The notes under the pieces are model-generated. The model searched no databases, was not told where the DNA came from, and saw only the letters and a list, made by a program, of their open reading frames with translations. DNA of 24,206 nt from a virus. The position numbers were made by a program, and so were the translations under genes. Below, one piece after another: positions 26-21,840 of this stretch; positions within the stretch are counted from its first letter, which is position 1; every line of letters begins with the position of its first letter. The stretch lies in IMG/VR virus record IMGVR_UViG_3300044716_000609, positions 1 through 24,206 of that record; one strand, written 5' to 3'.

Positions 26-73
26 CACGACGATGTTATAGATGTATCATTAGAAGACATCAAAGAAGAATAA
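11..73 (+). CDS. C-terminal end of an upstream + strand gene (partial)
   Basis: The reading frame ending in TAA at 71-73 encodes a run of lysines followed by an acidic tail ending in DVSLEDIKEE, which looks like a natural protein C-terminus. It is followed 9 bases later by the next + strand gene. The frame has a stop at 8-10, just before a run of 17 A (9-25). The upstream part of the gene must therefore enter through a different frame, or the homopolymer length is wrong. The product is not identifiable. Confidence 0.4.
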   Translation, partial: KKKKKHDDVIDVSLEDIKEE

Positions 74-82
74 GTATATTAT

Positions 83-385
83 ATGAAATTTGATAAATTA
101 GTAAAATCATTATTAAACGAAGCACCAATTGCTGCATTTTCAACAAAAGAAGGATTACCTGTAAGCATAGATTTAAAAATAAAAGATCAATATGCAACAG
201 ATTATATTGGTTTTATTTCTTATATCAAACAGGTAATGTCACAATTAGATCCCGATTCTAAAAATAAATTTCTAGAAGAATTAAAGAATAACGAAGAATT
301 TAAAAATACTTTTGATTATTTTTATACTAAAAATGGTAATTTAAATAAAACAATAACTGATTTTTATAATGATATAAATCAATAA
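83..385 (+). CDS. Small protein with a candidate capsid-targeting N-terminus
   Basis: A 100-residue protein of unknown family. It starts MKFDKLVKSLLNE (residues 1-13), an amphipathic leader ending in L-N-E. This matches the (L/I)-x-E signature that the T4 prohead protease gp21 cuts after. T4 internal head proteins carry a similar short N-terminal capsid-targeting leader. The rest is helical and charged, with no transmembrane segment or cysteines. It follows another + strand gene by 9 bases and runs toward the major capsid gene, separated from it by a bidirectional terminator. Two other proteins in this window start with the same MKF-type leader (minus strand, 20510 and 21817). The packaged-protein role is inference; existence of the gene is well supported by the clean frame and clear stop. 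Confidence 0.75.
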   Translation: MKFDKLVKSLLNEAPIAAFSTKEGLPVSIDLKIKDQYATDYIGFISYIKQVMSQLDPDSKNKFLEELKNNEEFKNTFDYFYTKNGNLNKTITDFYNDINQ

Positions 386-2953: not shown

Positions 2954-3421
2954 TTATAATTTTCTTAATGTATAACCACCATGGTCATCAACGAACCAAA
3001 CACGTGGATAGAAACTTTCTTGATCCATACGTTTTCTCAAAAAATTTTCGGCATCTTCTTCATCACCGAATGTTGCTAAATGTTTACCGCCATAAATTGA
3101 GACATCTGTTCTGCCTCCCAATGTTCCGGAACTACTAATAATATAATCCTCTTCTTCTGGTTGTTCTTCTGACAGATTTGGAATCCTATCTTGAGTATCT
3201 TCAGGTTCTGAGAAATCACCGAAATCATTGTCATCTAAATTTTCTTTAACGACCTTTTTCTTTTTCTTTTTGCCACATTCTTCGCAACATGCTTTGTGCA
3301 TTTTTTTAACCTTTTCTTTTAACTTTTTTTCAATTAAAGTTTCAAGTGTTGAATTTGCCGAAGAATAATTCTTTTCGCAAATTTGTGTTATAAACTTAGA
3401 GATGTCTTTTCGCAATTCCAT
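2954..3421 (-). CDS. Probable prohead core or internal protein between gp21 and gp22
   Basis: 155 residues, no confident family. There are three zones: an N-terminal helical segment with I-C-E at 14-16 (possible gp21 cut site); a basic Cys-containing patch with CCEECGKKKKKK (about 45-56); then an acidic linker and a C-terminal globular part (about 100-155) with GGKHLATFGDEEDAENF and WFVDDHGGYTLRKL. Its place between protease gp21 and scaffold gp22, and its highly charged composition, recall the small T4 core proteins gp67/gp68, which lie next to gp21. No sequence match to those can be claimed. The Cys cluster could bind a metal but has no clear second pair. The start at 3421 has a GATAAATA octamer ending 10 bases upstream. 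Confidence 0.8.
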   Translation of the reverse strand: MELRKDISKFITQICEKNYSSANSTLETLIEKKLKEKVKKMHKACCEECGKKKKKKVVKENLDDNDFGDFSEPEDTQDRIPNLSEEQPEEEDYIISSSGTLGGRTDVSIYGGKHLATFGDEEDAENFLRKRMDQESFYPRVWFVDDHGGYTLRKL

Positions 3422-3454: not shown

Positions 3455-4126
3455 TTAAAGTTTTTTTATTGCATTAATAAATGTAATAAATTGTTCTTTT
3501 AAATATGCGTCTCTTTCTTTGTTTGGTAATTTAGAAATAGCCTTTTCAAATGTATCGTAAAAAGGTTCAAATTCACCACTCTCAGCAAGAACCCATTTTT
3601 TGGATTCTAAGATACCATTAACAAATGCAGTAGGAACGGATGGATCAGCAACAACATCAATTGCAACCAATCTAAAGTCAGATACAACACCAACCCCTTG
3701 TTTGTTGTTATCAACTCTTCCCAATGCTCTGGATGATACACCTAATTTAACACCATCCATAATTAATGAACGAACGATTTGTCCCATTGGAGTAGAGAGA
3801 ATTTTTGATTTACCTTCAAAGATGTCACCATTTTGTTTTAATTCTGTAACCATGTGACAGGCTCTTTCCAAATTAACTTCAGGTGAGGTAGGATGATTTA
3901 ATTCACCTGTAGATCTACTATTAACAATCATTTCGGAGGTATATCTATTGACCTCTTCTACCATTTGGTTTCTTGGATAAATTCTATTATTTCTATTTGG
4001 TCTATCTGCCATCAAAAACGGCCCTTGTATAAAAAGATTAGACGGAGAGTTTCTATTTTTTTCTTCAACCAAATATTTCAACTCATAATTTGGTGTTTCT
4101 ACTAATAGATTATAGGCATTGCTCAT
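3455..4126 (-). CDS. 21: Prohead core protease, T4 gp21 family (peptidase U9/S80)
   Basis: Serine protease that matures the prohead by cleaving scaffold, core and capsid proteins after (L/I)-x-E. Seen here: the IQGPFLMADRPNRNNRIYP block, GELNHP with the catalytic His, and GVSSRALG with the catalytic Ser, all in T4 order; length about 223 residues against 212 in T4. The frame is open to an ATG at 4162 that overlaps the gp4 stop (ATGA). I prefer the ATG at 4126 because MSNAYNLLVETP aligns with the T4 start MNEPQLLIETWG, and the 12 residues before it are an Asn/Ser-rich translation of AT-rich leader. The 4162 start, coupled to gp4, remains possible. L-V-E at residues 8-10 could be a self-cleavage site. 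It lies between gp4 and the core protein gene. Confidence 0.93.
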   Translation of the reverse strand: MSNAYNLLVETPNYELKYLVEEKNRNSPSNLFIQGPFLMADRPNRNNRIYPRNQMVEEVNRYTSEMIVNSRSTGELNHPTSPEVNLERACHMVTELKQNGDIFEGKSKILSTPMGQIVRSLIMDGVKLGVSSRALGRVDNNKQGVGVVSDFRLVAIDVVADPSVPTAFVNGILESKKWVLAESGEFEPFYDTFEKAISKLPNKERDAYLKEQFITFINAIKKL

Positions 4127-4158
4127 ATTTATATTATTATTACTTATACTACAGCTGT

Positions 4159-4617
4159 TCATTTTAAATGGTTTTCGTTAAAAATTAAAAATAAGTATCC
4201 TCTTTTTTCACACCATTCTCTTGCATATTTCCATTTTGCTAAATTTACTTCATAGTTATACTTTTCATAAAGTATAGTTGATTGTTTTTTTCTACTGGTT
4301 ATTGTCGGTGGTTTGGTTTGCTTTTCTGGTTTTACTTCAATTAAAACTTTTTTAATCGATTTATCTTTCATTTTTATTTCTGCTACCAAATCAACAAAAT
4401 ACCTGTGCATACGACCATCAGCAGGAGAAACATAAGGTATTACAACCGATTCTGATCCCCATGATATAACATTGATACTATTATCTAAAAATCTAAATGA
4501 TGATAGTTCTAGTGAACTTCTATATATTATCGGAAAACTTCCTATGTATTTTTTTTTATTTTTCGGTGTAAAAATACCTTGTACATAGTTTCTATTCTTT
4601 TTTCCTAATGTTTTCAT
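4159..4617 (-). CDS. 4: Head completion nuclease-like protein, T4 gp4 family
   Basis: 152 residues, like T4 gp4 (150), which acts after DNA packaging to complete the head before tail joining. The conserved pattern is visible: YIGSFPIIYRSSLELSSFRF, W-G-S-E near 53-56, IPYVSPADGRMHRYFVD (60-76), then LIEVKPEKQTKPP (92-104) and a C-terminal AKWKYAREWCEKRG. Glu37, Asp76 and E94-x-K96 form the acid/acid/E-x-K arrangement of a TnsA/restriction-like nuclease fold, suggesting a metal-dependent nuclease. It follows gp13 with a stop/start overlap (TAATG), so it is probably translationally coupled. In T4 gene 4 lies elsewhere (near 2, 3 and 53), so this placement inside the capsid operon is a rearrangement. 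Confidence 0.85.
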   Translation of the reverse strand: MKTLGKKNRNYVQGIFTPKNKKKYIGSFPIIYRSSLELSSFRFLDNSINVISWGSESVVIPYVSPADGRMHRYFVDLVAEIKMKDKSIKKVLIEVKPEKQTKPPTITSRKKQSTILYEKYNYEVNLAKWKYAREWCEKRGYLFLIFNENHLK

Positions 4618-7475: not shown

Positions 7476-9860
7476 TTATTCAACAATCAACAAGGATCCT
7501 GTTGCAGTTACAGCAGATAAACTATTACCAAATGTTACAACCATTGTTTCTGGTCCTTCTGTTAGCATGTCATTTGTTAAAGTAAAATATATCACTGCTC
7601 CTGCTCCCATTCCTTCTGGATGAGTAGTAACTATTCCATTTAATGGAATATCTATATCTTGTTCAGAAATTCCGGTTATAGAGTAAGGAACTTCTACACC
7701 TACTTCTGTGTTTGTAATATTAACTACACAATATAAAGAAGTTCCCTCCGATGCTTCTGTTACGATTGTATTGTTATCAACAAACAACATGTTAAAAAAT
7801 ATAGGAACATTATCGTGAATAGGCCAACCCCTTGCAGATAATTCCATTCTAGCAGATAAACCTACACTAGAGGGCAATGACATTAATGGTCCCCTTAAAG
7901 TAATTTCTGCATGAGTGGCCCAACTAAAATCTGGATATGTACCAAATGAATTAAAAGCTGTTAATATGTGATCTACTGTTTGTTGAGTGAATTGGTTATT
8001 TGAAACATCAAAATGTTGCAATGAACTCAAGCCTGTTATATCGAGATTAGTTAAATTACAATTATATAAATCCAAAGAGGTCATTTTTGAATTGTTTTTT
8101 GGAAGATGAACAGATGATAGTGATGGACTATCTATACAAATAAGAGTTAACATCTCTTGTAGATTACTACAATCAATTGAACTTAAATTAGCATTTTGAA
8201 GACCAATATACGCTAAATTATTACTATTTTTAATATCAAGGCTTGAAATACCCTGATATGGCAAACTAAGTGACCCTAAATATGGATAATTTGAAGCATC
8301 AATTCTTCCTCCTCGATTTATTATAGAAGAATCATTTAGTTGGAATGATCCTAAATTAATATTACTAGTATCTATTAATAATTTATTTCCATCAATTCTG
8401 TACGGTACACCCCACGACGTTTCAGATAAAACTTGCGGGGTTGGAAGAGGTAACTGTGTATCAAAATCATACCAAAAAATTCTTTCTCCTTCAATTGGAG
8501 TATCAGTTGGAGTCTCTGTTGGAGTCTCTGTTGGAGTATCGGTAGGAGTTTCTGTAGGAGTTTCTGTAGGAGTTTCTTCCGACTCGTCTTTACCTAATTG
8601 ATAAAAAACTCTACCTGATAAAGTTACAGTAGGTGAATATGTGTTGGAATCGGTTTCATCCAAACTAACGTATGTGGTTGTTGAACTTAAAGTAGGAATA
8701 GTAGTACCGTCCCATGCGGCTAGATTTAAATCTCTGGCAATATTAGTTATTCTACATCCAATAGCATGGGTTGGAAACTCCATGCCTGGACCAGCAAAAA
8801 GCAAACCAACGATTTTCCATTTTTCATCGGGTGTTCCTCTATCAAATAATCCGAGAACCATAGATCCAGAATCTCCCCCTCTACCGGGAACCGAACTTCC
8901 TCTGAATAAGAAAGAGTTAGAAAATCTAACAAAATAATTGTTATACACGCCAACAATAGCTGAAGCGAATTGATATGCGGATAAACTACAACTATTTGTG
9001 TTACCCGGATAGCCAATTGGACCACACGTTCTTCCGGATCTAAATAATGGAGCACCAAAATTTACAGAATCTGTATCTAATAATGAATCTATTTCTTCAT
9101 CTGTTGCAAATGGATAAGGTGGGGCAAAATCAAATCCTATTGGTTGCAAACTATTAGAATCTAACAACCCATCATAAGTTTTTAATTCAACAATTGCTGC
9201 ATCACACGATGTATCCCAAATGATATTATATGGAGTAGCACCCATAAGACTTGGGTCTAGATTTCCCATAACAACTGGTCTTTTTGTTTTACCTATGTGA
9301 TCATTTTCTATAGTAGTTTTCCAATATCCACTTGGTTGATATGCGGATATACTAGATGTATTAACTCTAGCAGAAGGAATACTTGCAGATATTTGAGAAT
9401 TAGCAAAAACATGACTATTAGATAGAGCAACAATCTGACCATCGCTTTTATCAATAACAAAAGTTCCTAATGTACCAACAACTGCTCCCCAATTTCCACC
9501 GATTGTTTCGCAACCAGATTTTAAAGATCTTCTTCTTATTCTGTTGGATTTTACTGGTTCAACAGTATTGCTTATAGCATGACAATCTGTGTATAATTTT
9601 TCATATATTTGTTTTTCTTGAATATCGGTTTTATAAAAAATATCTTGTATTTGATAAGTTTTTGGTAATATTTCATTAGGTGGAATTGCACTCAATGGTT
9701 TTTTAACATCAACAGTAATAATTAAAGAATATTCTCCAGTTTCTATTCCGTCTTTAATTTTCGGTCCCCATCCCAAGCCAAGAACATTTTTATCAGGAAA
9801 AACATCATTGACATCGGTTTCGCGTATCCACTTTAATAATTCTTTTGTGTTATTATTCAT
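7476..9860 (-). CDS. Multi-domain virion protein: trypsin-like protease, Pro-Thr linker, leucine-rich repeats, Calx-beta-like domain
   Basis: 794 residues. Residues about 1-95 form an N-terminal domain of unknown type. Residues about 115-385 look like a chymotrypsin-fold serine protease: LSNSHVFA (His150), CDAAIVEL (Asp220) and PGRGGDSGSMV (Ser331) form an ordered catalytic triad. There is no signal peptide. Residues 430-455 are a PTETPT/PTDTPT linker. Residues about 535-640 carry leucine-rich-repeat-like units (SSLDIKNSNNLAYIGL, SSIDCSNLQ, TSLDLYNCNLTNLDI, SLQHFDVSNNQF). Residues about 690-794 are a Calx-beta-like domain containing PYSITGISEQDIDIPLNG. It overlaps the preceding gene by 8 bases and lies between that gene and the portal, so it is probably a late virion component. 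Whether the protease acts on phage proteins, on itself or on the host surface is unknown. Confidence 0.85.
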   Translation of the reverse strand: MNNNTKELLKWIRETDVNDVFPDKNVLGLGWGPKIKDGIETGEYSLIITVDVKKPLSAIPPNEILPKTYQIQDIFYKTDIQEKQIYEKLYTDCHAISNTVEPVKSNRIRRRSLKSGCETIGGNWGAVVGTLGTFVIDKSDGQIVALSNSHVFANSQISASIPSARVNTSSISAYQPSGYWKTTIENDHIGKTKRPVVMGNLDPSLMGATPYNIIWDTSCDAAIVELKTYDGLLDSNSLQPIGFDFAPPYPFATDEEIDSLLDTDSVNFGAPLFRSGRTCGPIGYPGNTNSCSLSAYQFASAIVGVYNNYFVRFSNSFLFRGSSVPGRGGDSGSMVLGLFDRGTPDEKWKIVGLLFAGPGMEFPTHAIGCRITNIARDLNLAAWDGTTIPTLSSTTTYVSLDETDSNTYSPTVTLSGRVFYQLGKDESEETPTETPTETPTDTPTETPTETPTDTPIEGERIFWYDFDTQLPLPTPQVLSETSWGVPYRIDGNKLLIDTSNINLGSFQLNDSSIINRGGRIDASNYPYLGSLSLPYQGISSLDIKNSNNLAYIGLQNANLSSIDCSNLQEMLTLICIDSPSLSSVHLPKNNSKMTSLDLYNCNLTNLDITGLSSLQHFDVSNNQFTQQTVDHILTAFNSFGTYPDFSWATHAEITLRGPLMSLPSSVGLSARMELSARGWPIHDNVPIFFNMLFVDNNTIVTEASEGTSLYCVVNITNTEVGVEVPYSITGISEQDIDIPLNGIVTTHPEGMGAGAVIYFTLTNDMLTEGPETMVVTFGNSLSAVTATGSLLIVE
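8496..8573 (-). repeat. (Pro-Thr-Glu/Asp-Thr) linker-coding repeat
   Basis: Twelve-base units reading ggagt(t/a)tc(t/g)gt on the + strand encode PTETPT/PTDTPT at residues 430-455 of the protease protein. The same type of repeat is found in the two genes upstream. Confidence 0.85.
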
Positions 9861-12576
9861 AATTTTTAATTTCTATCATACCGCTGTTACTTGGATATAG
9901 TGTATCAGTATAAACAAACGAATCGGGTGTATTTTCATTTGGAGTAAAATATATTGTCTTATCACTTACACCGTACCATGGATCATTATTATATGATCCT
10001 TCTACATTATTTCCAACATCATATAAATCATTTCTTAATGCAAAAGGATGATTATTGGTTTTTACGATAAAATCATAATTTGTACCTCTATAACAAGTTA
10101 ATGTTGGACAATTTGAACCTATTTGATCAAATCTATATCTAGCATCTATGTCATTGTTTACTGGATCAAGATCAACAACTAAAGGTATGGAATTTGCCGA
10201 ATATAATGCTTTTTGATTCCAAGGAGTTGGAGTCTCCGTTGGAGTTGGCTTCGGTGGAGTTGGCTTCGGTGGTGGAACAATAATTTGCCATAAATTATTA
10301 AAGAATGTATCTACACAATCTTTTAATTCAAATAAATTTATATGAAGACCTATAGAATACCATGACCCTCTATGAGCAGTTTTTCCCCCTGATTCACTAT
10401 CAGAATATATATATATATAGTCCGGATTATTGTTTGATGAAAAATCTTCTAAATCGATAGTGCTATAACTATCATGAGGACAATCAGGCCAACCATCAGT
10501 TTTTGAATTTCCCCATAATGCTGTTAAGCTTCTTGTGTATGATTCACAAGTAATTGAATATAATCCATGAATAAATCTTGGATCATTTGGATCATAACAG
10601 GCAGTAAATATATTATTTCCATTACGTTTTTGGTTCAGCGTACCAATGATTTGATTCAACATGTTAGTTGTATGAATTCTATTAACACCTTTATCCGGTA
10701 AACTAAGATTTAAAGTACCAATTAATGGTTGTAATTCATAAGATTGATAGTCACCTTCTGTAACATAAAAACTAAGATGTCGATCTTCTTCAATATCATT
10801 ATTATAAACATTAGATAATAAAAATTTTTGTTCACCGTCACCTTTTAATCCAGTAGCTCTATTGTAATCTGAATCAGTAAAAGCGTTATTGCCTGGATTT
10901 GGACCCTTTAATGGAACCAAAGCACCAGCCAATGTTCTAGCACCAGCCATAACACAAGCTGCTGATATTTTATTCCAAAGATTTCTAGACTTTAAATCAA
11001 CAACAAAATCATTAATAGCAGTTTTTATTTCTGGTTCTAATTCTTCACCATCAACAATTTCAACTCTAGATATATAATCTAATGCATCATTATCAAATTC
11101 AGATGGAGTTTCTGTTGGAGTACTTGTTGGAGTAGGTGTAGGAGTACTTGTAGGAGTCTCTGTTGGAGTAGGAGTTATATCTATATCTGAGCATCCTAAT
11201 ACAAAACCATAAATTCCTTCTTGTGGATTTATGATATTTTTTAATTTCCAAGTACTCATACCATTAATACCCCACAAACCACCAATACCCCAATTTTCGA
11301 ATAAAAGAGTCTCACCTTCTATGAATACTCTTTCATCAAGATATTTAAATCCTCTTACATCTGAAATTGGTGAATCTTGATATTCTGCTTGTGTTATAAT
11401 TCCAAATTCACTATATGGTATAAGTAATTGTACACCATCAGGATCTTCGTTTGGTCTGTTTACACCATAAGTTGCTGCACCAGGAAAACCATCAGCATCT
11501 AAATCTACGGTGTAAACTGCACCAGAAGTTAATCCTGTTATTTTATTATTATTTGGTAATTTTGAAAGTACTCCATTCGAATAAATTATTAGGTCGTCTC
11601 TTAAAAAATTATGTCCTTCGGGTAAACAAGATAATGGATTATTTTTAATAACCAAAGAACCAGAAACAGCAGGCTCAACGTTATCTAATGTAATCACCAT
11701 TGTTTTTGAACCGTCTGTTATCGCATCAGCAGATATATTAAATGTTAATATACTATTACCAGCAGACATAATAAAAGTTCCTACTAATGGAATGTCTATA
11801 TCCGATTCTGAAATTCCTGTTATAGTATATGGAAATTCTGTTAAATCATTTACTTCAGCATAAAGTATGGCAGCTACAGCAGTTCCTTCAACAACTTCAT
11901 TAACTACAGTACTTGATCCGTTTCCATCATCTATACTAAATTCTATTCTATAATTAGATGGAGTTTCCGTAGGAGTATCGGTTGGAGTATCGGTTGGAGT
12001 ATCGGTTGGAGTATCGGTTGGAGTATCGGTTGGAGTATCGGTTGGAGTAGGTGTAGGTTCCGGTGTTGGTGTAATAAACGGAGGTGGCAGATTAACAGAA
12101 GAAACCGAAAATCCTAATACCAAAGAACCTGTATTATAATAATACAATGTAAAATATTCATCATTTATAGTAGATAATGTACATTTTTGTGTGACATATA
12201 ACGATGGAACATCACTAGCAATTAAATTCGTAGTAGTTATTCCTAAATTACAATCATAAAAATCGGCTGGATTAAAATTATTTTGAAGAGTAAATCCATC
12301 CAATCCATTTATAAAAAATTTAAAATTGTTTACTAATTCATCAACAGTAAAATAATAATTTTCTTGAGAATTTAAATTCATAACAAATCCATTATTATCA
12401 ATTGTTACATATATGGGATTGTTATTTTTTTGAACAAAAATATTTTTGAGATAATTTACAATATCGTTTAAAGTAGTTCTAAATTCAGCAGAACCATCAT
12501 TTTTGTAACCAACCAAAAAATCGCCGCTCAGTAAAGAAGATTTAGAATCAAAATCAGTAAAATTAATAGATGCCAT
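9853..12576 (-). CDS. Large modular tail-fibre or decoration-type protein with Pro-Thr linkers
   Basis: 907 residues made of modules joined by three Pro-Thr linkers (170-206, 469-491, 768-785). Module 1 (1-165) begins INFTDFDSKSSLLSGDFLVG, a start typical of phage fibre or structural proteins that attach to the virion. Module 2 (207-312) is Calx-beta-like, with PYTITGISESDIDIPLVG, and is clearly related to the C-terminus of the next gene. Module 3 (about 316-462) is unassigned. Module 4 (about 495-765) is a lectin-like or jelly-roll-type virion domain (AINDFVVDLKSRNLWNKI, AGARTLAGAL, GLKGDGEQKFL). Module 5 (about 786-907) resembles the cupredoxin-like domain of marine phage structural proteins (CYRGTNYDFIVKTNNHPFAL, TIYFTPNENTPDSFVY). 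It lacks the usual QCxxH-type segment, having YPSNSGMIEI instead. It follows the gp15-like gene and overlaps the protease gene. Confidence 0.85.
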   Translation of the reverse strand: MASINFTDFDSKSSLLSGDFLVGYKNDGSAEFRTTLNDIVNYLKNIFVQKNNNPIYVTIDNNGFVMNLNSQENYYFTVDELVNNFKFFINGLDGFTLQNNFNPADFYDCNLGITTTNLIASDVPSLYVTQKCTLSTINDEYFTLYYYNTGSLVLGFSVSSVNLPPPFITPTPEPTPTPTDTPTDTPTDTPTDTPTDTPTDTPTETPSNYRIEFSIDDGNGSSTVVNEVVEGTAVAAILYAEVNDLTEFPYTITGISESDIDIPLVGTFIMSAGNSILTFNISADAITDGSKTMVITLDNVEPAVSGSLVIKNNPLSCLPEGHNFLRDDLIIYSNGVLSKLPNNNKITGLTSGAVYTVDLDADGFPGAATYGVNRPNEDPDGVQLLIPYSEFGIITQAEYQDSPISDVRGFKYLDERVFIEGETLLFENWGIGGLWGINGMSTWKLKNIINPQEGIYGFVLGCSDIDITPTPTETPTSTPTPTPTSTPTETPSEFDNDALDYISRVEIVDGEELEPEIKTAINDFVVDLKSRNLWNKISAACVMAGARTLAGALVPLKGPNPGNNAFTDSDYNRATGLKGDGEQKFLLSNVYNNDIEEDRHLSFYVTEGDYQSYELQPLIGTLNLSLPDKGVNRIHTTNMLNQIIGTLNQKRNGNNIFTACYDPNDPRFIHGLYSITCESYTRSLTALWGNSKTDGWPDCPHDSYSTIDLEDFSSNNNPDYIYIYSDSESGGKTAHRGSWYSIGLHINLFELKDCVDTFFNNLWQIIVPPPKPTPPKPTPTETPTPWNQKALYSANSIPLVVDLDPVNNDIDARYRFDQIGSNCPTLTCYRGTNYDFIVKTNNHPFALRNDLYDVGNNVEGSYNNDPWYGVSDKTIYFTPNENTPDSFVYTDTLYPSNSGMIEIKNYE
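10222..10275 (-). repeat. Third Pro-Thr linker-coding repeat of the modular protein
   Basis: Encodes PKPTPPKPTPTETPTP (residues 768-785), including a direct repeat of the 15-base unit ggagttggcttcggt on the + strand. Confidence 0.75.
11104..11172 (-). repeat. Second Pro-Thr linker-coding repeat of the modular protein
   Basis: Encodes [22 protein letters not shown] at residues 469-491, separating the third and fourth modules. Confidence 0.8.
11959..12069 (-). repeat. First Pro-Thr linker-coding repeat, perfect 12-mers
   Basis: On the + strand the 12-mer ggttggagtatc recurs about six times perfectly. This encodes tandem TDTP units at residues 170-206. Such perfect nucleotide identity implies recent slippage-driven expansion. 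Confidence 0.9.
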
Positions 12577-12584
12577 ATATCATA

Positions 12585-12592
12585 TATTTATA
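12585..12592 (-). promoter_or_regulatory. T4-type late promoter core for the modular protein gene
   Basis: A perfect TATAAATA reads leftward, ending 8 bases before the ATG at 12576 and overlapping the stop codon of the gp15-like gene. Confidence 0.6.
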
Positions 12593-14315
12593 TTAAAGTT
12601 ATCGCATTTTCGTTTTTTATATCAACTAAAGTTTTTCCAGAAATTGAATATATATTATTATTTAAAACATTTGATTGAATTTTAAATATTTCTTTTCCGG
12701 AAATTGTTTTTAATGTTTTTCCAGAAATCGAATATATATTATTATTTGAAACGGTTGATTGAATTTTAACAATATCTTTTCCGGAAATTGTTTTTAATGT
12801 TTTTCCAGAAATTGAATATATGTTGTTTTGATTTACGGTTGGTGTTTCAGTTGGAGTACTAGTAGGAGTATTTGTAGGAGTCTCCGTAAGTGTTAAAGTA
12901 GGAGTACTTGTAGGTGTACTGGTTGGAGTATTTGTAGGAGTACTGGTTGGTGTTAAAGTAGGAGTACTTGTAGGAGTGTTTGTAGGAGTGTTTGTAGGAG
13001 TGTTTGTAGGTGTACTGGTTGGTGTTAAAGTAGGAGTACTGGTTGGTGTTAAAGTAGGAGTACTGGTTGGAGTATTTGTAGGAGTGTTTGTAGGAGTTAA
13101 AGTAGGAGTTTCGGTAGGGGTTAAAGTAGGAGTGCTTGTAGGAGTAGGATTTATTATCAATAAACCATCCATTCCACAATCTTCACATTCTAATCCTAAT
13201 GCTCCATCATATGCAAAAACTTTAGGACGTTGCTTATCTTCTGTTAAAATTCCATAACCTGCTTCATTTTCTACTATAACATCAACATATCCAGAAGTTT
13301 TTGGTACTTGAGGTAAATCAAAACTTAAAAAGTTTTCATTAAACAAATTAAATTCCGGAACTATTATACCCCTGAATGCGGGATATGCACTTTCCATTCT
13401 TGGGATAGAAGAAAACGGATTGAATAAACTAATTCCATCAAACATTTCTTCGTTTGACGCACTTAAATAAACATTTCTAACTTCAAAAAATGATTTTCCG
13501 TATATTTCAATAGTTTTAAAATTATTGAATTGATTATATGCTATAACTTTACATGGTTCTATGTCTCTGAGTTGAGGTCTAGCGGAAATAGAAAGATGAT
13601 CTGTATATTGTTCATCTAAATCTATTAATAAATTTGAATCACTGTTTATTGCGGTGTAATCAGAATTTATTACATATATTTTTTTAACTATTTCGTCTAT
13701 TTTCTTAAAAAGCCATCCCTTTATAGTAAAATTTGTATCAGCCGCTATTCTAAATGCTTGATTTGGACCCGCATCATTTGGATATTGTAATGAAATATTA
13801 CCATTCCATAAAACCTCGGTTCTTATTTCATATTGAGTTAATGAGCCTTCTAAATCAGGAGTTTTCCACGAAATTACAATATATGGATCACAATATGGAG
13901 TAAAATTGGATATCAATTGCTCCATATCATTTTGATATTTTGTTATCAATGTCATATTGACACCGATATTAACAGGAATTGGTTGAGGTATATGTTTTAC
14001 ATAATCTATAGATTCATTTATCTTATTATAATTGACATTGAATCCATCGTTTTTATTAAAAACTCTATTTTGATCTCTGGAAATGGATGCTATACTAACA
14101 GCAATAGCGGGAACCGTAATTCCACCCGGTGCGGGATTTTGCAAAGTATTAAAAACTCTTTGCTTGGGTCCATATACATAGTTTACTTTTATATCATTTG
14201 CAGGAGTTACTAAATTTTTATCTTTATCGTATCTTTTAATAAAGACATCATTGAAAGCACCAACGAACTGCTCTAAAATCGTTTGAATCTCCCAGTAGTA
14301 TGTATATTTTTTCAC
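12588..14315 (-). CDS. 15: Tail completion and sheath stabiliser (T4 gp15-like) with Ig-like domain, Pro-Thr linker and repeat tail
   Basis: 575 residues; T4 gp15 is 272. Residues 1-220 match the gp15 pattern: [79 protein letters not shown] and FTIKGWLFK. In T4 gp15 caps the tail and contacts the neck. Residues about 250-370 look like an IPT/TIG Ig-like domain ([34 protein letters not shown]). Residues 390-494 are a long Pro-Thr linker with Ser, Asn or Leu at the variable position. The last 79 residues are three copies of a 28-residue repeat ([17 protein letters not shown] core). The start is GTG at 14315, supported by an upstream TGTAAATA octamer and by [10 protein letters not shown] being the conserved beginning. 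The assignment rests on the N-terminal third; the extension has no T4 counterpart. Confidence 0.8.
12591..12827 (-). repeat. Three tandem copies of an 84-base (28-residue) coding repeat
   Basis: On the + strand ccagaaat(t/c)gaatata recurs at 12637, 12721 and 12805, an exact 84-base period. The first two copies are full length and the third, at the protein C-terminus, diverges at its end. They encode [17 protein letters not shown] followed by D/E-I-x-K-I-Q-S. Each unit also contains an internal half-repeat, SISGKTL then TISGKDI. Confidence 0.9.
12834..13148 (-). repeat. Long Pro-Thr linker-coding repeat
   Basis: About 26 degenerate 12-base units (ggagt[a/g][c/t]ttgta on the + strand) encode alternating PTSTPT, PTLTPT and PTNTPT units, about 105 residues. 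It is the longest of the window's Pro-Thr linkers. Confidence 0.9.
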
Positions 14316-18453: not shown

Positions 18454-19035
18454 ATGAATAATTTGAGAAAGTCAAAAAAGAAAAACATGAAAACAAAAAA
18501 AGCGCACTCTGAAGTAAAAAGAATTTTAAATTCTAATATACAAAGATTAGATTTAAACGAAAGTTCAGATATACCTTTTGTTAAAAATTTTTTATATTCT
18601 TTAATTAAAGAACAAGAAGATATTGTTCCAGAACAAGACTCAAAAAATCCAAAAACTCCCAATGATTTTACACCGGAACAAAATCAAAAAGATCTAGAAA
18701 ATTCATTAGATCCTAATACCGATCCTTCTCAATTTGATGTCGAGGGAGTAGCACCAGAACTAACAGTTCAAAATATCGAAAAGGTTTTAGACTGGTCTAA
18801 AAAACTTGATGAATTTGCAATGTTCTTAAATAGTCCACAGGAAGATTCTTTACATAAAATCCTTGCTGATAATGATAGAGCAGGTAGTTTGCTTAGAGGT
18901 GTTACCAGAAAAGCATCGGATTCCATAACCAGAATCACTGGTGAAATTGAAAAACTAAAAGCAGTATTGGATACATATATTAACACTGCACCTAAGAAAT
19001 TACGCGATACTGAACAGTTAAAAATGGGAAGTTAA
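18454..19035 (+). CDS. Hypothetical charged helical protein on the opposite strand
   Basis: 193 residues, family unknown. A very basic N-terminus (RKSKKKNMKTKK) is followed by a leader-like stretch ending in L-N-E (34-36), then an acidic, Pro/Asn-rich linker (about 60-105) and a helical C-terminal half with LDWSKKLDEFAMFL and SITRITGEIEKLKAVLDTY. There is a second possible start at Met12. It is the only complete + strand gene between 386 and 21874. Its TAA and the primase TAA (opposite strand) share the palindrome TTAA at 19032-19035. The late-type promoter, basic leader and (L/I)-x-E suggest a virion or head protein; this is inference. Confidence 0.75.
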   Translation: MNNLRKSKKKNMKTKKAHSEVKRILNSNIQRLDLNESSDIPFVKNFLYSLIKEQEDIVPEQDSKNPKTPNDFTPEQNQKDLENSLDPNTDPSQFDVEGVAPELTVQNIEKVLDWSKKLDEFAMFLNSPQEDSLHKILADNDRAGSLLRGVTRKASDSITRITGEIEKLKAVLDTYINTAPKKLRDTEQLKMGS

Positions 19036-20018: not shown

Positions 20019-20510
20019 TCAATTAAATTTGTTCTCTAGGTTATTGAAAACGGAATCATCAAAACTAAAATCTTCAGAGTTTTCTTGTTCATCAGTTTCT
20101 TGTTCCGATGTTTCTTCGTTTGAATTTTCATCTTCGGAAGATTCATTCTCTGTAGAATCTTCATCATTTTTCTCTTCAAATGGAGAGAAAGATTTTCTTT
20201 CTTTTATAAAGAATTTTATAAATTCGTTAGCATTGAATTCGACTGGACTTTTCTTATCAAAATTATGCTTTAAGTTGTTTTCTATTATAGATTTAATTTT
20301 AGAAATGGTAAAACGATTTTCTTCATTATCTTGTTTTAAAAATTCTAAAATTTTTGAATATATAGGTTTACTTAAATTATCATCGGACATTTTTTCGATA
20401 TAATTTTCAATATCATCAAAATCCAATGAAATTTCTTTGGAATGATCTGTCTTTGGTCTTCCTTCTAAAAGGGTTTCTAAATAGTTTTCAACTAAAATGT
20501 CAAATTTCAT
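20019..20510 (-). CDS. Acidic protein with a candidate capsid-targeting N-terminus
   Basis: 163 residues, no known family. It begins MKFDILVENYLETLLE-G, ending in the L-L-E (14-16) expected at a gp21 cut site and closely matching the start of the gene at 83. The middle is helical. Residues about 110-163 are extremely acidic, with runs of Glu, Asp, Ser and Asn. A mature acidic internal head protein or a DNA mimic would both fit. It follows the kinase gene by 8 bases and precedes primase by 30. Confidence 0.75.
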   Translation of the reverse strand: MKFDILVENYLETLLEGRPKTDHSKEISLDFDDIENYIEKMSDDNLSKPIYSKILEFLKQDNEENRFTISKIKSIIENNLKHNFDKKSPVEFNANEFIKFFIKERKSFSPFEEKNDEDSTENESSEDENSNEETSEQETDEQENSEDFSFDDSVFNNLENKFN

Positions 20511-20518
20511 ACCAATAT

Positions 20519-21169
20519 TTACAATTTAAATGTAGCAGGTACGATATCTGATATTAAACTTTGCTCTTCACCAAATGGTTTACCTTCTTTAGTAATATAA
20601 AGTTCGGTCATTTTAATTCTTTGCTCTGGATTACCAAAAATTTCAATCAAAGCAGGACATTCATTTGTAGGGAAAACTCTACCATCTGCTCGGAGATATG
20701 ATTGTTGAAATACTTTAAAGATATTATCAATTTCTTCTCTATAGATTGGATCGATATCTCTAAGTTCATTATCTTCTAATGGAACCTCGGCCACCTTTGT
20801 TAAGGGAAAGAAAAAAATAACATCAAACATTTTTAAGGTTTCCCTTACAATAAGTCTGGTTTCTTCTAGAAACCTATCAGAAACCTTTTCTTGTAAATTC
20901 AACCAAGATGAATATGCTAAATTATCCAAAACACACCTATCCAAAATAACAAAATCTTTTTTTGAAGATTCTATAGTTTGATCTACTAGAAAATTTAGTA
21001 TTTGTTTTTGAGACTCTTCTGTTCCATCTTTGCTGTGTCTGATTTTATCGTTCTTGATCAAATCTCTATAAGAAGATTGTGACGTTTCATACATAGGCCA
21101 ATTTTTTAAAAAATCTTGAACATATGTTGTTTTTCCTGTACTGTGAGTTCCTACTGTTGCTATTTTCAT
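20519..21169 (-). CDS. P-loop ATPase/nucleoside kinase-like protein (AAA_28/NadR-like)
   Basis: 216 residues. Walker A is GTHSTGKT (7-14) at the very N-terminus. A Walker B-like VILDRCVLDNLAYSSW (about 74-89) has the D-R-x-x-x-D-N pattern of nucleotide kinases. RLIVRETLKMFDVIFFFPLT is followed by an acidic E-D-N-E-L-R-D lid-like segment. This is the layout of NadR-type ribosylnicotinamide kinase and related AAA_28 proteins common in phages. The substrate is unknown; nucleotide or NAD precursor metabolism is possible. It sits 7 bases after the gene at 21431. Confidence 0.8.
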   Translation of the reverse strand: MKIATVGTHSTGKTTYVQDFLKNWPMYETSQSSYRDLIKNDKIRHSKDGTEESQKQILNFLVDQTIESSKKDFVILDRCVLDNLAYSSWLNLQEKVSDRFLEETRLIVRETLKMFDVIFFFPLTKVAEVPLEDNELRDIDPIYREEIDNIFKVFQQSYLRADGRVFPTNECPALIEIFGNPEQRIKMTELYITKEGKPFGEEQSLISDIVPATFKL

Positions 21170-21469: not shown

Positions 21470-21817
21470 TTAAAAGCTATTTTCTGGAAAATTTGATTGT
21501 GTACTATCTAAAAATGATTGAAGTGTTTTTTCTGCTTCTTTTGGTTCTGTTTCTATTTTTTTTTCTAAATCAGACAAATTGTTTCTTTTGTCTGTATCGT
21601 TTTTATATGCCATAATCAATGCTTTTTGAACCATTAAAAGCAATGCTTTATATTTTTCTTCATTTAAATCAATAGTTTCTTCTGTTGGTAATTCGGTATC
21701 TAATACTTCAGTAGGTTGAGATTGTTCAACAGAAGGATCTTCTGCCATCATTTCATCAGCTTGTTGTTCTGTTAAATACTGTCTTGCTGCTTTGTCGAAT
21801 ATGTCTTTAAATTTCAT
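21470..21817 (-). CDS. Small acidic protein with a candidate capsid-targeting N-terminus
   Basis: 115 residues, family unknown. The leader MKFKDIFDKAARQYLTE ends in L-T-E (15-17), a gp21-type site, and resembles the starts at 83 and 20510. After it comes an acidic, Pro/Thr-containing stretch (18-50) and a helical C-terminal half with YKALLLMVQKALIMAY. Two perfect TATAAATA octamers lie just upstream, one exactly 6 bases before the ATG, marking it as a late gene, as would fit a packaged head protein. It is divergent from baseplate gene 6. Confidence 0.78.
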   Translation of the reverse strand: MKFKDIFDKAARQYLTEQQADEMMAEDPSVEQSQPTEVLDTELPTEETIDLNEEKYKALLLMVQKALIMAYKNDTDKRNNLSDLEKKIETEPKEAEKTLQSFLDSTQSNFPENSF

Positions 21818-21823
21818 TTTATA

Positions 21824-21831
21824 TATTTATA
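21824..21831 (-). promoter_or_regulatory. T4-type late promoter core, copy 1
   Basis: A perfect leftward TATAAATA, ending 6 bases before the ATG at 21817. It is the proximal one of a tandem pair. Confidence 0.65.
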
Positions 21832-21832
21832 T

Positions 21833-21840
21833 TATTTATA
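21833..21840 (-). promoter_or_regulatory. T4-type late promoter core, copy 2
   Basis: A second perfect leftward TATAAATA, 9 bases further upstream, in the 57-base divergent region shared with baseplate gene 6. No equally good rightward octamer is seen for gene 6, whose immediate leader is AAGTAATAATA before the ATG. Confidence 0.55.

Follow-up and report, generated by a model that had tools for sequence, protein, structure and literature searches.

Three proteins with predicted capsid-targeting leaders in an uncultured T4-like aquatic phage

The DNA analysed here, a 24,206-base IMG/VR fragment referred to in its whole length as the window, comes from an uncultured, distant T4-like aquatic phage. 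The head genes gp23, gp22, gp21, gp20 and gp6 were identified in it. Compared with cultured phages, the gp23 product was closest to those of cyanophages, with about 34% identity, the best among the matches listed.

Four of the head-region proteins, all encoded on the minus strand, carry the tripeptide [LI]xE, as the earlier note on this DNA had pointed out. The major capsid protein gp23 (469–1938) has a propeptide extending to IEE at residues 58–60 (1759–1938). The scaffold gp22 (2011–2913) begins with the leader MNKFAEILKQVDESVINE (2860–2913), ending in INE at residues 16–18, and contains many internal [LI]xE sites. The core-like protein (2954–3421), encoded between gp21 and gp22, begins with MELRKDISKFITQICE (3374–3421), with ICE at residues 14–16. 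The prohead protease gp21 (Peptidase S77; 3455–4162), the presumed cutter, itself has LVE at residues 20–22 and 31–33.

Elsewhere in the window, positions 18454–19035 (plus strand) encode a 193-aa acidic protein with [LI]xE at residues 49–51 (IKE). The LIKE motif is retained in a relative (G005), and the product is another candidate gp21 substrate. Long Thr-Pro repeats (TPTETPT/TPTNTPT) were observed in three large proteins at 7476–14315 (minus strand), where they probably form extended linkers of tail or fibre proteins.

Three further open reading frames, at 83–385 on the plus strand (protein A), 20019–20510 on the minus strand (protein B) and 21470–21817 on the minus strand (protein C), were found with the N-terminal residues that the earlier note had described. 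Their leaders comprise 13, 16 and 17 residues, respectively, and each ends in [LI]xE. In protein A, the predicted capsid-targeting leader MKFDKLVKSLLNE (83–121) would be cut after Glu13, with A as the next residue, and the predicted mature part of 87 aa (122–385) is expected to fold into a beta-beta element and four helices. A TAAGTA box resembling a late promoter, and presumably acting as one, lies 12 nt upstream (71–76, plus strand).

In protein B, the predicted leader MKFDILVENYLETLLE (20463–20510, minus strand) would be cut after Glu16, with G following, and the predicted mature part of 147 aa (20019–20462) has an acidic C-terminal tail. Upstream lies a TAAATA box (20516–20521, minus strand) with the same putative function. 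In protein C, the predicted leader MKFKDIFDKAARQYLTE (21767–21817, minus strand) would be cut after Glu17, with Q following, and the predicted mature part of 98 aa (21470–21766) consists of a low-confidence linker and then helices. A late-promoter-like box, TATAAATA, is located immediately upstream of C (21824–21831, minus strand), with a second at 21833–21840; the window-wide count of this box was not above chance, while its position is suggestive.

No significant Pfam or PHROG match was obtained for A, B or C, in agreement with their earlier description as proteins of unknown family. Their acidity was also confirmed, and extends to all three: the net charge of the mature part is −3 for A, −21 for B and −13 for C. 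Searches of PDB and BFVD for A, and of BFVD for C, gave no fold match, and no homologue of A or C was found in cultured phages, T4 included. In AlphaFold2 models, the leader of A formed a low-confidence helix ahead of a compact domain, and that of C preceded the low-confidence linker and a helical domain. The suggestion that the three proteins are injected anti-defence factors found no support in these family and fold searches.

The earlier note described the leaders as near-identical and based its main argument on their (L/I)-x-E ending. The description applied to A and B, which have MKFDxLV in common, and failed for C, which shares only MKF with them. The ending is present in all three leaders, but it proved not to be discriminating. 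[LI]xE occurs in a random 13-residue stretch of window proteins with a probability of 0.14, and it was found at residues 8–20 in 4 of 17 other window proteins. In cyanophage S-CREM2, mass spectrometry (MS) found 52 of the 219 proteins in virions. The detected fraction was 13/42 for those with an [LI]xE among their first 24 residues and 39/177 for the rest (p = 0.15). Because the motif arises in 14% of cases by chance and does not predict S-CREM2 virion proteins, it is too weak as a criterion when used alone and was rejected in that role. Also rejected, as not predictive, was a looser register (P7/P4/P3/P1 within 22 residues; 5/14, p = 0.22).

The complete leader, on the other hand, is far above chance and constitutes strong evidence. 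The 2.9 million IMG/VR contigs were scanned with a degenerate DNA pattern encoding MKFDxLV and, behind it, two hydrophobic positions and Glu13. It matched 42 contigs, and a scrambled decoy matched 1. Across six related genomes, 24 of 1339 start-zone Mets and 1 of 2698 internal Mets carried the strict leader (p = 5e-11), a control that is imperfect in that N-termini and protein interiors differ in composition. Synonymous codons vary at nearly every constant leader residue; what is conserved is therefore the peptide and not the DNA.

Whether such leaders also occur on cytoplasmic enzymes depended on the rule applied in these six genomes. A broad rule also caught gp32, the gp44 clamp loader and an Hsp20-like protein (named by eye), and the strict M[KNR]1-2F rule was therefore adopted, under which no replication or metabolic enzyme was recognised. 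A chance resemblance, produced by Lys-rich hydrophobic N-termini combined with a common tripeptide, would fit the frequent and unpredictive occurrence of [LI]xE near N-termini and the little that C shares with A and B. Set against the decoy count, the comparison of start and internal Mets, the varying codons and the unrelated mature parts, it is highly improbable.

Conservation within the families was concentrated in the leader. In family A, 9 of 13 leader columns were invariant compared with 12 of about 89 columns elsewhere, one member (L086) having been found through the leader pattern; residues fixed by a search pattern are not usable as evidence of conservation. In family C, every homologue's leader ends in [LI]xE followed by Gln, though leader length varies by up to three residues.

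Proteins with the DUF6267 domain offered a view of the leader boundary. In G018 the leader MKSFKLYFEQYELLNE is followed by the mature part AKANTHLTHLEEL, in Melnitz-1 (L)INFSKYITE is followed by DKGGKNLHLEHIEDE, and in HTVC008M MYNDLLVE is followed by DKNTHLEHLEDD, while the S-SZBM1_141 homologue is leaderless and begins MAKNTHLEHLEDD. Three different leaders thus have a common [LI]xE boundary, which corresponds to the start of the leaderless homologue. Judged from these sequences, the DUF6267 leader is a visible add-on with a boundary that coincides with the predicted cut.

These data bear on the proposal that the leader is an uncut peptide by which proteins dock to the prohead or to some other structure of the phage, with [LI]xE being part of a binding helix and no cleavage site. 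Cleavage is here predicted from sequence rather than observed, and a T4 capsid-targeting sequence (CTS) with Asp at position 10 still targets although its cutting is blocked (PMC9026906). However, the Glu at the leader end is invariant in families A and C, the DUF6267 leader ends where the leaderless homologue starts, and gp21 is encoded alongside, which makes uncut docking improbable. Leader-like starts lacking [LI]xE were observed at G002:C1:22592 (plus strand, MKFDTLIEQTLSGLAQGK) and in a Nudix-like protein at G002:C1:3608 (plus strand, MKFSDYMSSNFEGAG); these are possibly degenerate or uncut leaders.

The leader was not confined to one kind of protein. When 87 distinct leader proteins of the window and its relatives were clustered by mature part, 33 clusters were obtained, three of which look like spurious ORFs, giving about 30 unrelated families. 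The scaffold gp22 is itself a bearer. Among the others are small Lys/Arg-rich proteins, some of them DUF5872-like, as well as DUF6267 proteins, a possible Zn-protease and a kinase resembling zeta toxin (PF06414, E = 5e-7). For the leader protein at G001:103236, an ADP-ribosyltransferase reading was rejected, the match being weak (E = 0.06) and the PDB matches (E 0.9) being due to chance. ParB- and GNAT-like readings of L066 and L065 were weak or made by eye only and were likewise rejected.

In 7 of 8 cyanophage multi-domain proteins of the T4-GC119 type (L111–L114, L155, L159), an [LIV]xE ends 0–3 residues before the DUF5872-like domain. These proteins, whose sequences are homologous and not independent, are possibly polyproteins cut into beads. 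A wider arrangement of beads on a string, with cut sites before each T4-GC119 domain, was rejected as it holds only for the DUF5872 bead (7/8, with V allowed at P3).

The protease accompanied the leader. Among the newly found leader contigs, each of the seven exceeding 86 kb encoded gp21 (Peptidase S77), as did one of 36 kb, and both long relatives of the window encode it too. Eight leader contigs of 42–83 kb gave no gp21 match; these are uninformative, because portal and gp23 searches of the same contigs gave no match and no positive control matched either. In two relatives (G019:C1:97447–98994 and G020:C1:147021–148568; L106–L109), gp21 is a 614-aa frame with two PF03420 pieces about 1.1 kb apart, a split that appears to represent an intein-like insertion.

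A TAAATA/TAAGTA box was present within 32 nt upstream of 15/28 leader genes compared with 276/1289 other genes (p = 2e-4), and A, B and C have one late-promoter-like box each. In the window (upstream of 83, 20510 and 21817) and in the relatives G001, G002, G018, G020 and G011 (tiles L032–L051 and L115–L141), TAAATA boxes peak 11–12 nt before the ATG, while the corresponding distance in cyanophages S-CREM2, S-SM1 and S-SZBM1 is 24–34 nt. Since only 11–12 nt separate the box from the ATG, the spacing suggests leaderless late mRNAs, and with them a host making little use of Shine-Dalgarno signals.

Published virion proteomes of cultured phages were then compared with a T4-type pattern, consisting of M, one or two residues, and [FYW]xx[FYW][LI]xE (9–10 residues). 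In S-CREM2, leaders of this type were found on the SAM lyase gp6 (PF23780, E = 2e-19), the kinase gp14 and the cytidylyltransferase gp154, all three of which were MS-detected in virions (Table 3 of PMC10665884). A broadened pattern, with residue classes picked after the detected N-termini were known, added gp13 and gp136 (both detected) and gp175 (undetected), yielding 5/6 (p = 0.003), or p = 2e-4 when structural proteins were excluded.

Comparable results were obtained for other cyanophages. In S-SM1, the only annotated protein matching the pattern was the T4-GC190 cytidylyltransferase SSM1_190, which is present in virions (PMC3037559). In S-SCSM1, of whose genome about 83% was scanned, it was NMNAT, named as a virion protein (PMC9602691). 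The virion cytidylyltransferase of S-SZBM1 has the nine-residue leader MRFRQFIIE followed by A, whereas two other perfect T4-type leaders of this phage were not among its 30 virion-detected proteins (PMC9146016). In the four cultured relatives together, the T4-type leader was found on 8 annotated proteins, 6 of which were MS-detected in virions.

The authors of the S-CREM2 and S-SCSM1 studies left undecided whether the enzymes were packaged or contaminating (PMC10665884, PMC9602691), and neither leaders nor targeting are mentioned in the S-CREM2 paper (PMC10665884). The presence of predicted leaders on these virion enzymes favours packaging over contamination. S-CREM2 gp160, a virion protein with seven peptides, matches DUF5872 and other mature domains of the leader proteins of the window's relatives. 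A separate observation concerns S-CREM2 gp12 (L157:7704–10313, minus strand), which is annotated as Cas9 and was virion-detected: its residues 19–25, FASFMAE, resemble a capsid-targeting leader, and no Pfam or NCBIfam match was obtained for the protein.

Taken together, these results point to the leaders of A, B and C being capsid-targeting sequences, that is, the entry tag of T4 internal proteins in a 13-residue variant, with a rough probability of 0.8. The central claim of the earlier note, T4-like capsid-targeting leaders cut by gp21, was thus supported on grounds other than its [LI]xE reasoning: the roughly 30 unrelated families of bearers, the co-occurrence of gp21, the conservation concentrated in the leader, the DUF6267 boundary and the MS-detected bearers of T4-type leaders. 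Counted against it were the two perfect S-SZBM1 leaders and the broadened S-CREM2 match (gp175) undetected in virions, together with the MKFDxLV form, which is unlike T4's ten residues, and the acidic mature parts, which are unlike T4 internal proteins.

In the proposed course of events, the A, B and C precursors would probably be made late, and the short N-terminal amphipathic helix would draw each of them into the assembling prohead core, presumably via gp22. gp21 would then cut behind the terminal Glu of [LI]xE, leaving the mature protein free inside the head, from where it may pass to the next host along with the DNA. Prohead entry, cleavage and the position of the cut are likely on sequence grounds. 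For injection into the host the odds are about even, because the mature parts are acidic and the acidic tail of B recalls a prohead-core protein, T4 gp67.

The latter resemblance belongs to a rival explanation, namely that A, B and C belong to the prohead core (scaffold), as do the small T4 proteins gp67 and gp68, which are gp21 substrates (PMC9026906). As such they would be recruited by the leader, cut by gp21, active in shaping the head and then mostly degraded or expelled, neither retained nor injected. The net acidic charge of B, C and A and their extra internal [LI]xE sites (3, 1 and 1, respectively) fit this explanation, as do the leader of the same type on gp22 and the fact that A and gp23 are neighbours on opposite strands in the window, G001 and G002. 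However, one to three internal sites compare with fifteen in gp22, enzymes and small basic proteins bear the same leader type, and enzymes in mature virions bear T4-type leaders, which makes a purely core-forming role rather unlikely. In Pfam and PHROG, no family match was obtained for A, B, C or the core-like protein, and only the core-like protein (2954–3421) lies inside the gp20–gp23 cluster, B and C being outside it.

For the capsid-targeting reading, a wider extension can be offered tentatively, at slightly less than even odds: the interchangeable leader may be a general cargo system of T4-like aquatic phages, by which about 30 protein families would be loaded into the head and delivered with the DNA. 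With similar reserve, the cargo could comprise SAM lyase, kinases, NMNAT-like enzymes, the zeta-toxin-like kinase and small basic proteins.

Injected proteins work ahead of any phage gene expression and, to our knowledge, few are known beyond T4 and the giant phages; growing most uncultured phages is not possible. With a validated leader, likely head cargo could be listed straight from metagenomes, and if the cargo-system reading is true, sequence alone would reveal which proteins an uncultured phage injects. The leader also gives a simple explanation for enzymes that recur in cyanophage virion proteomes and that the authors could not separate from contamination. As far as could be checked, two things are new: the 13-residue MKFDxLV variant, borne in uncultured aquatic phages by a wide range of cargo, and the match of T4-type leaders to the unexplained enzymes of published cyanophage virion proteomes. 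Among the open-access papers retrieved on capsid targeting sequences and phages, no title named a cyanophage.

Among known systems, phiKZ and SPN3US have a protease related to gp21 that cleaves head and ejected proteins behind a Glu (PMC9026906). phiKZ, compared here through the review's description, differs from the window phage in belonging to another phage group and in its S/A-X-E motif (PMC9026906). The virion enzymes of S-CREM2, S-SM1, S-SCSM1 and S-SZBM1 are similar in that a leader of the MKxFxxFLxE type occurs on MS-detected non-structural proteins. Their leaders, however, have only 9–10 residues, and the enzymes are not homologous to A, B or C.

In T4, the CTS is an N-terminal propeptide of about 10–19 residues ending in L/I-X-E, and such leaders have already been proposed as the route by which T4-like phages package varied proteins (PMC9026906). 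The precedent cited in the earlier note, the IPIII leader MKTYQEFIAE, was confirmed in sequence; these first ten residues alone are needed for head incorporation, with residues 4 and 7 being important for targeting and residues 8 and 10 for cutting (PMC9026906). For IPII, the database record annotates a ten-residue leader as removed.

In contrast to the 10 residues of the T4 CTS (19 in IPI), the leaders of A, B and C have 13–17, and the 13-residue variant differs in its Phe3-Leu6-Val7 pattern and one extra helical turn. The mature parts also differ, those of IPI, IPII and IPIII being basic and those of A, B and C acidic, with no Pfam or PHROG homology between them. When A was aligned at the cut, hydrophobic residues occupied the positions of IPIII Tyr4, Phe7 and Ile8; at the aromatic positions 4 and 7 these are the non-aromatic Val7 and Leu10, with a Phe at position 3, and B and C fit partly. 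With IPI, IPII and IPIII, the three proteins nevertheless share a short leader that ends in [LI]xE and is hydrophobic at the targeting positions, and, as in T4, one leader occurs on unrelated proteins and the phage encodes both gp21 and gp22.
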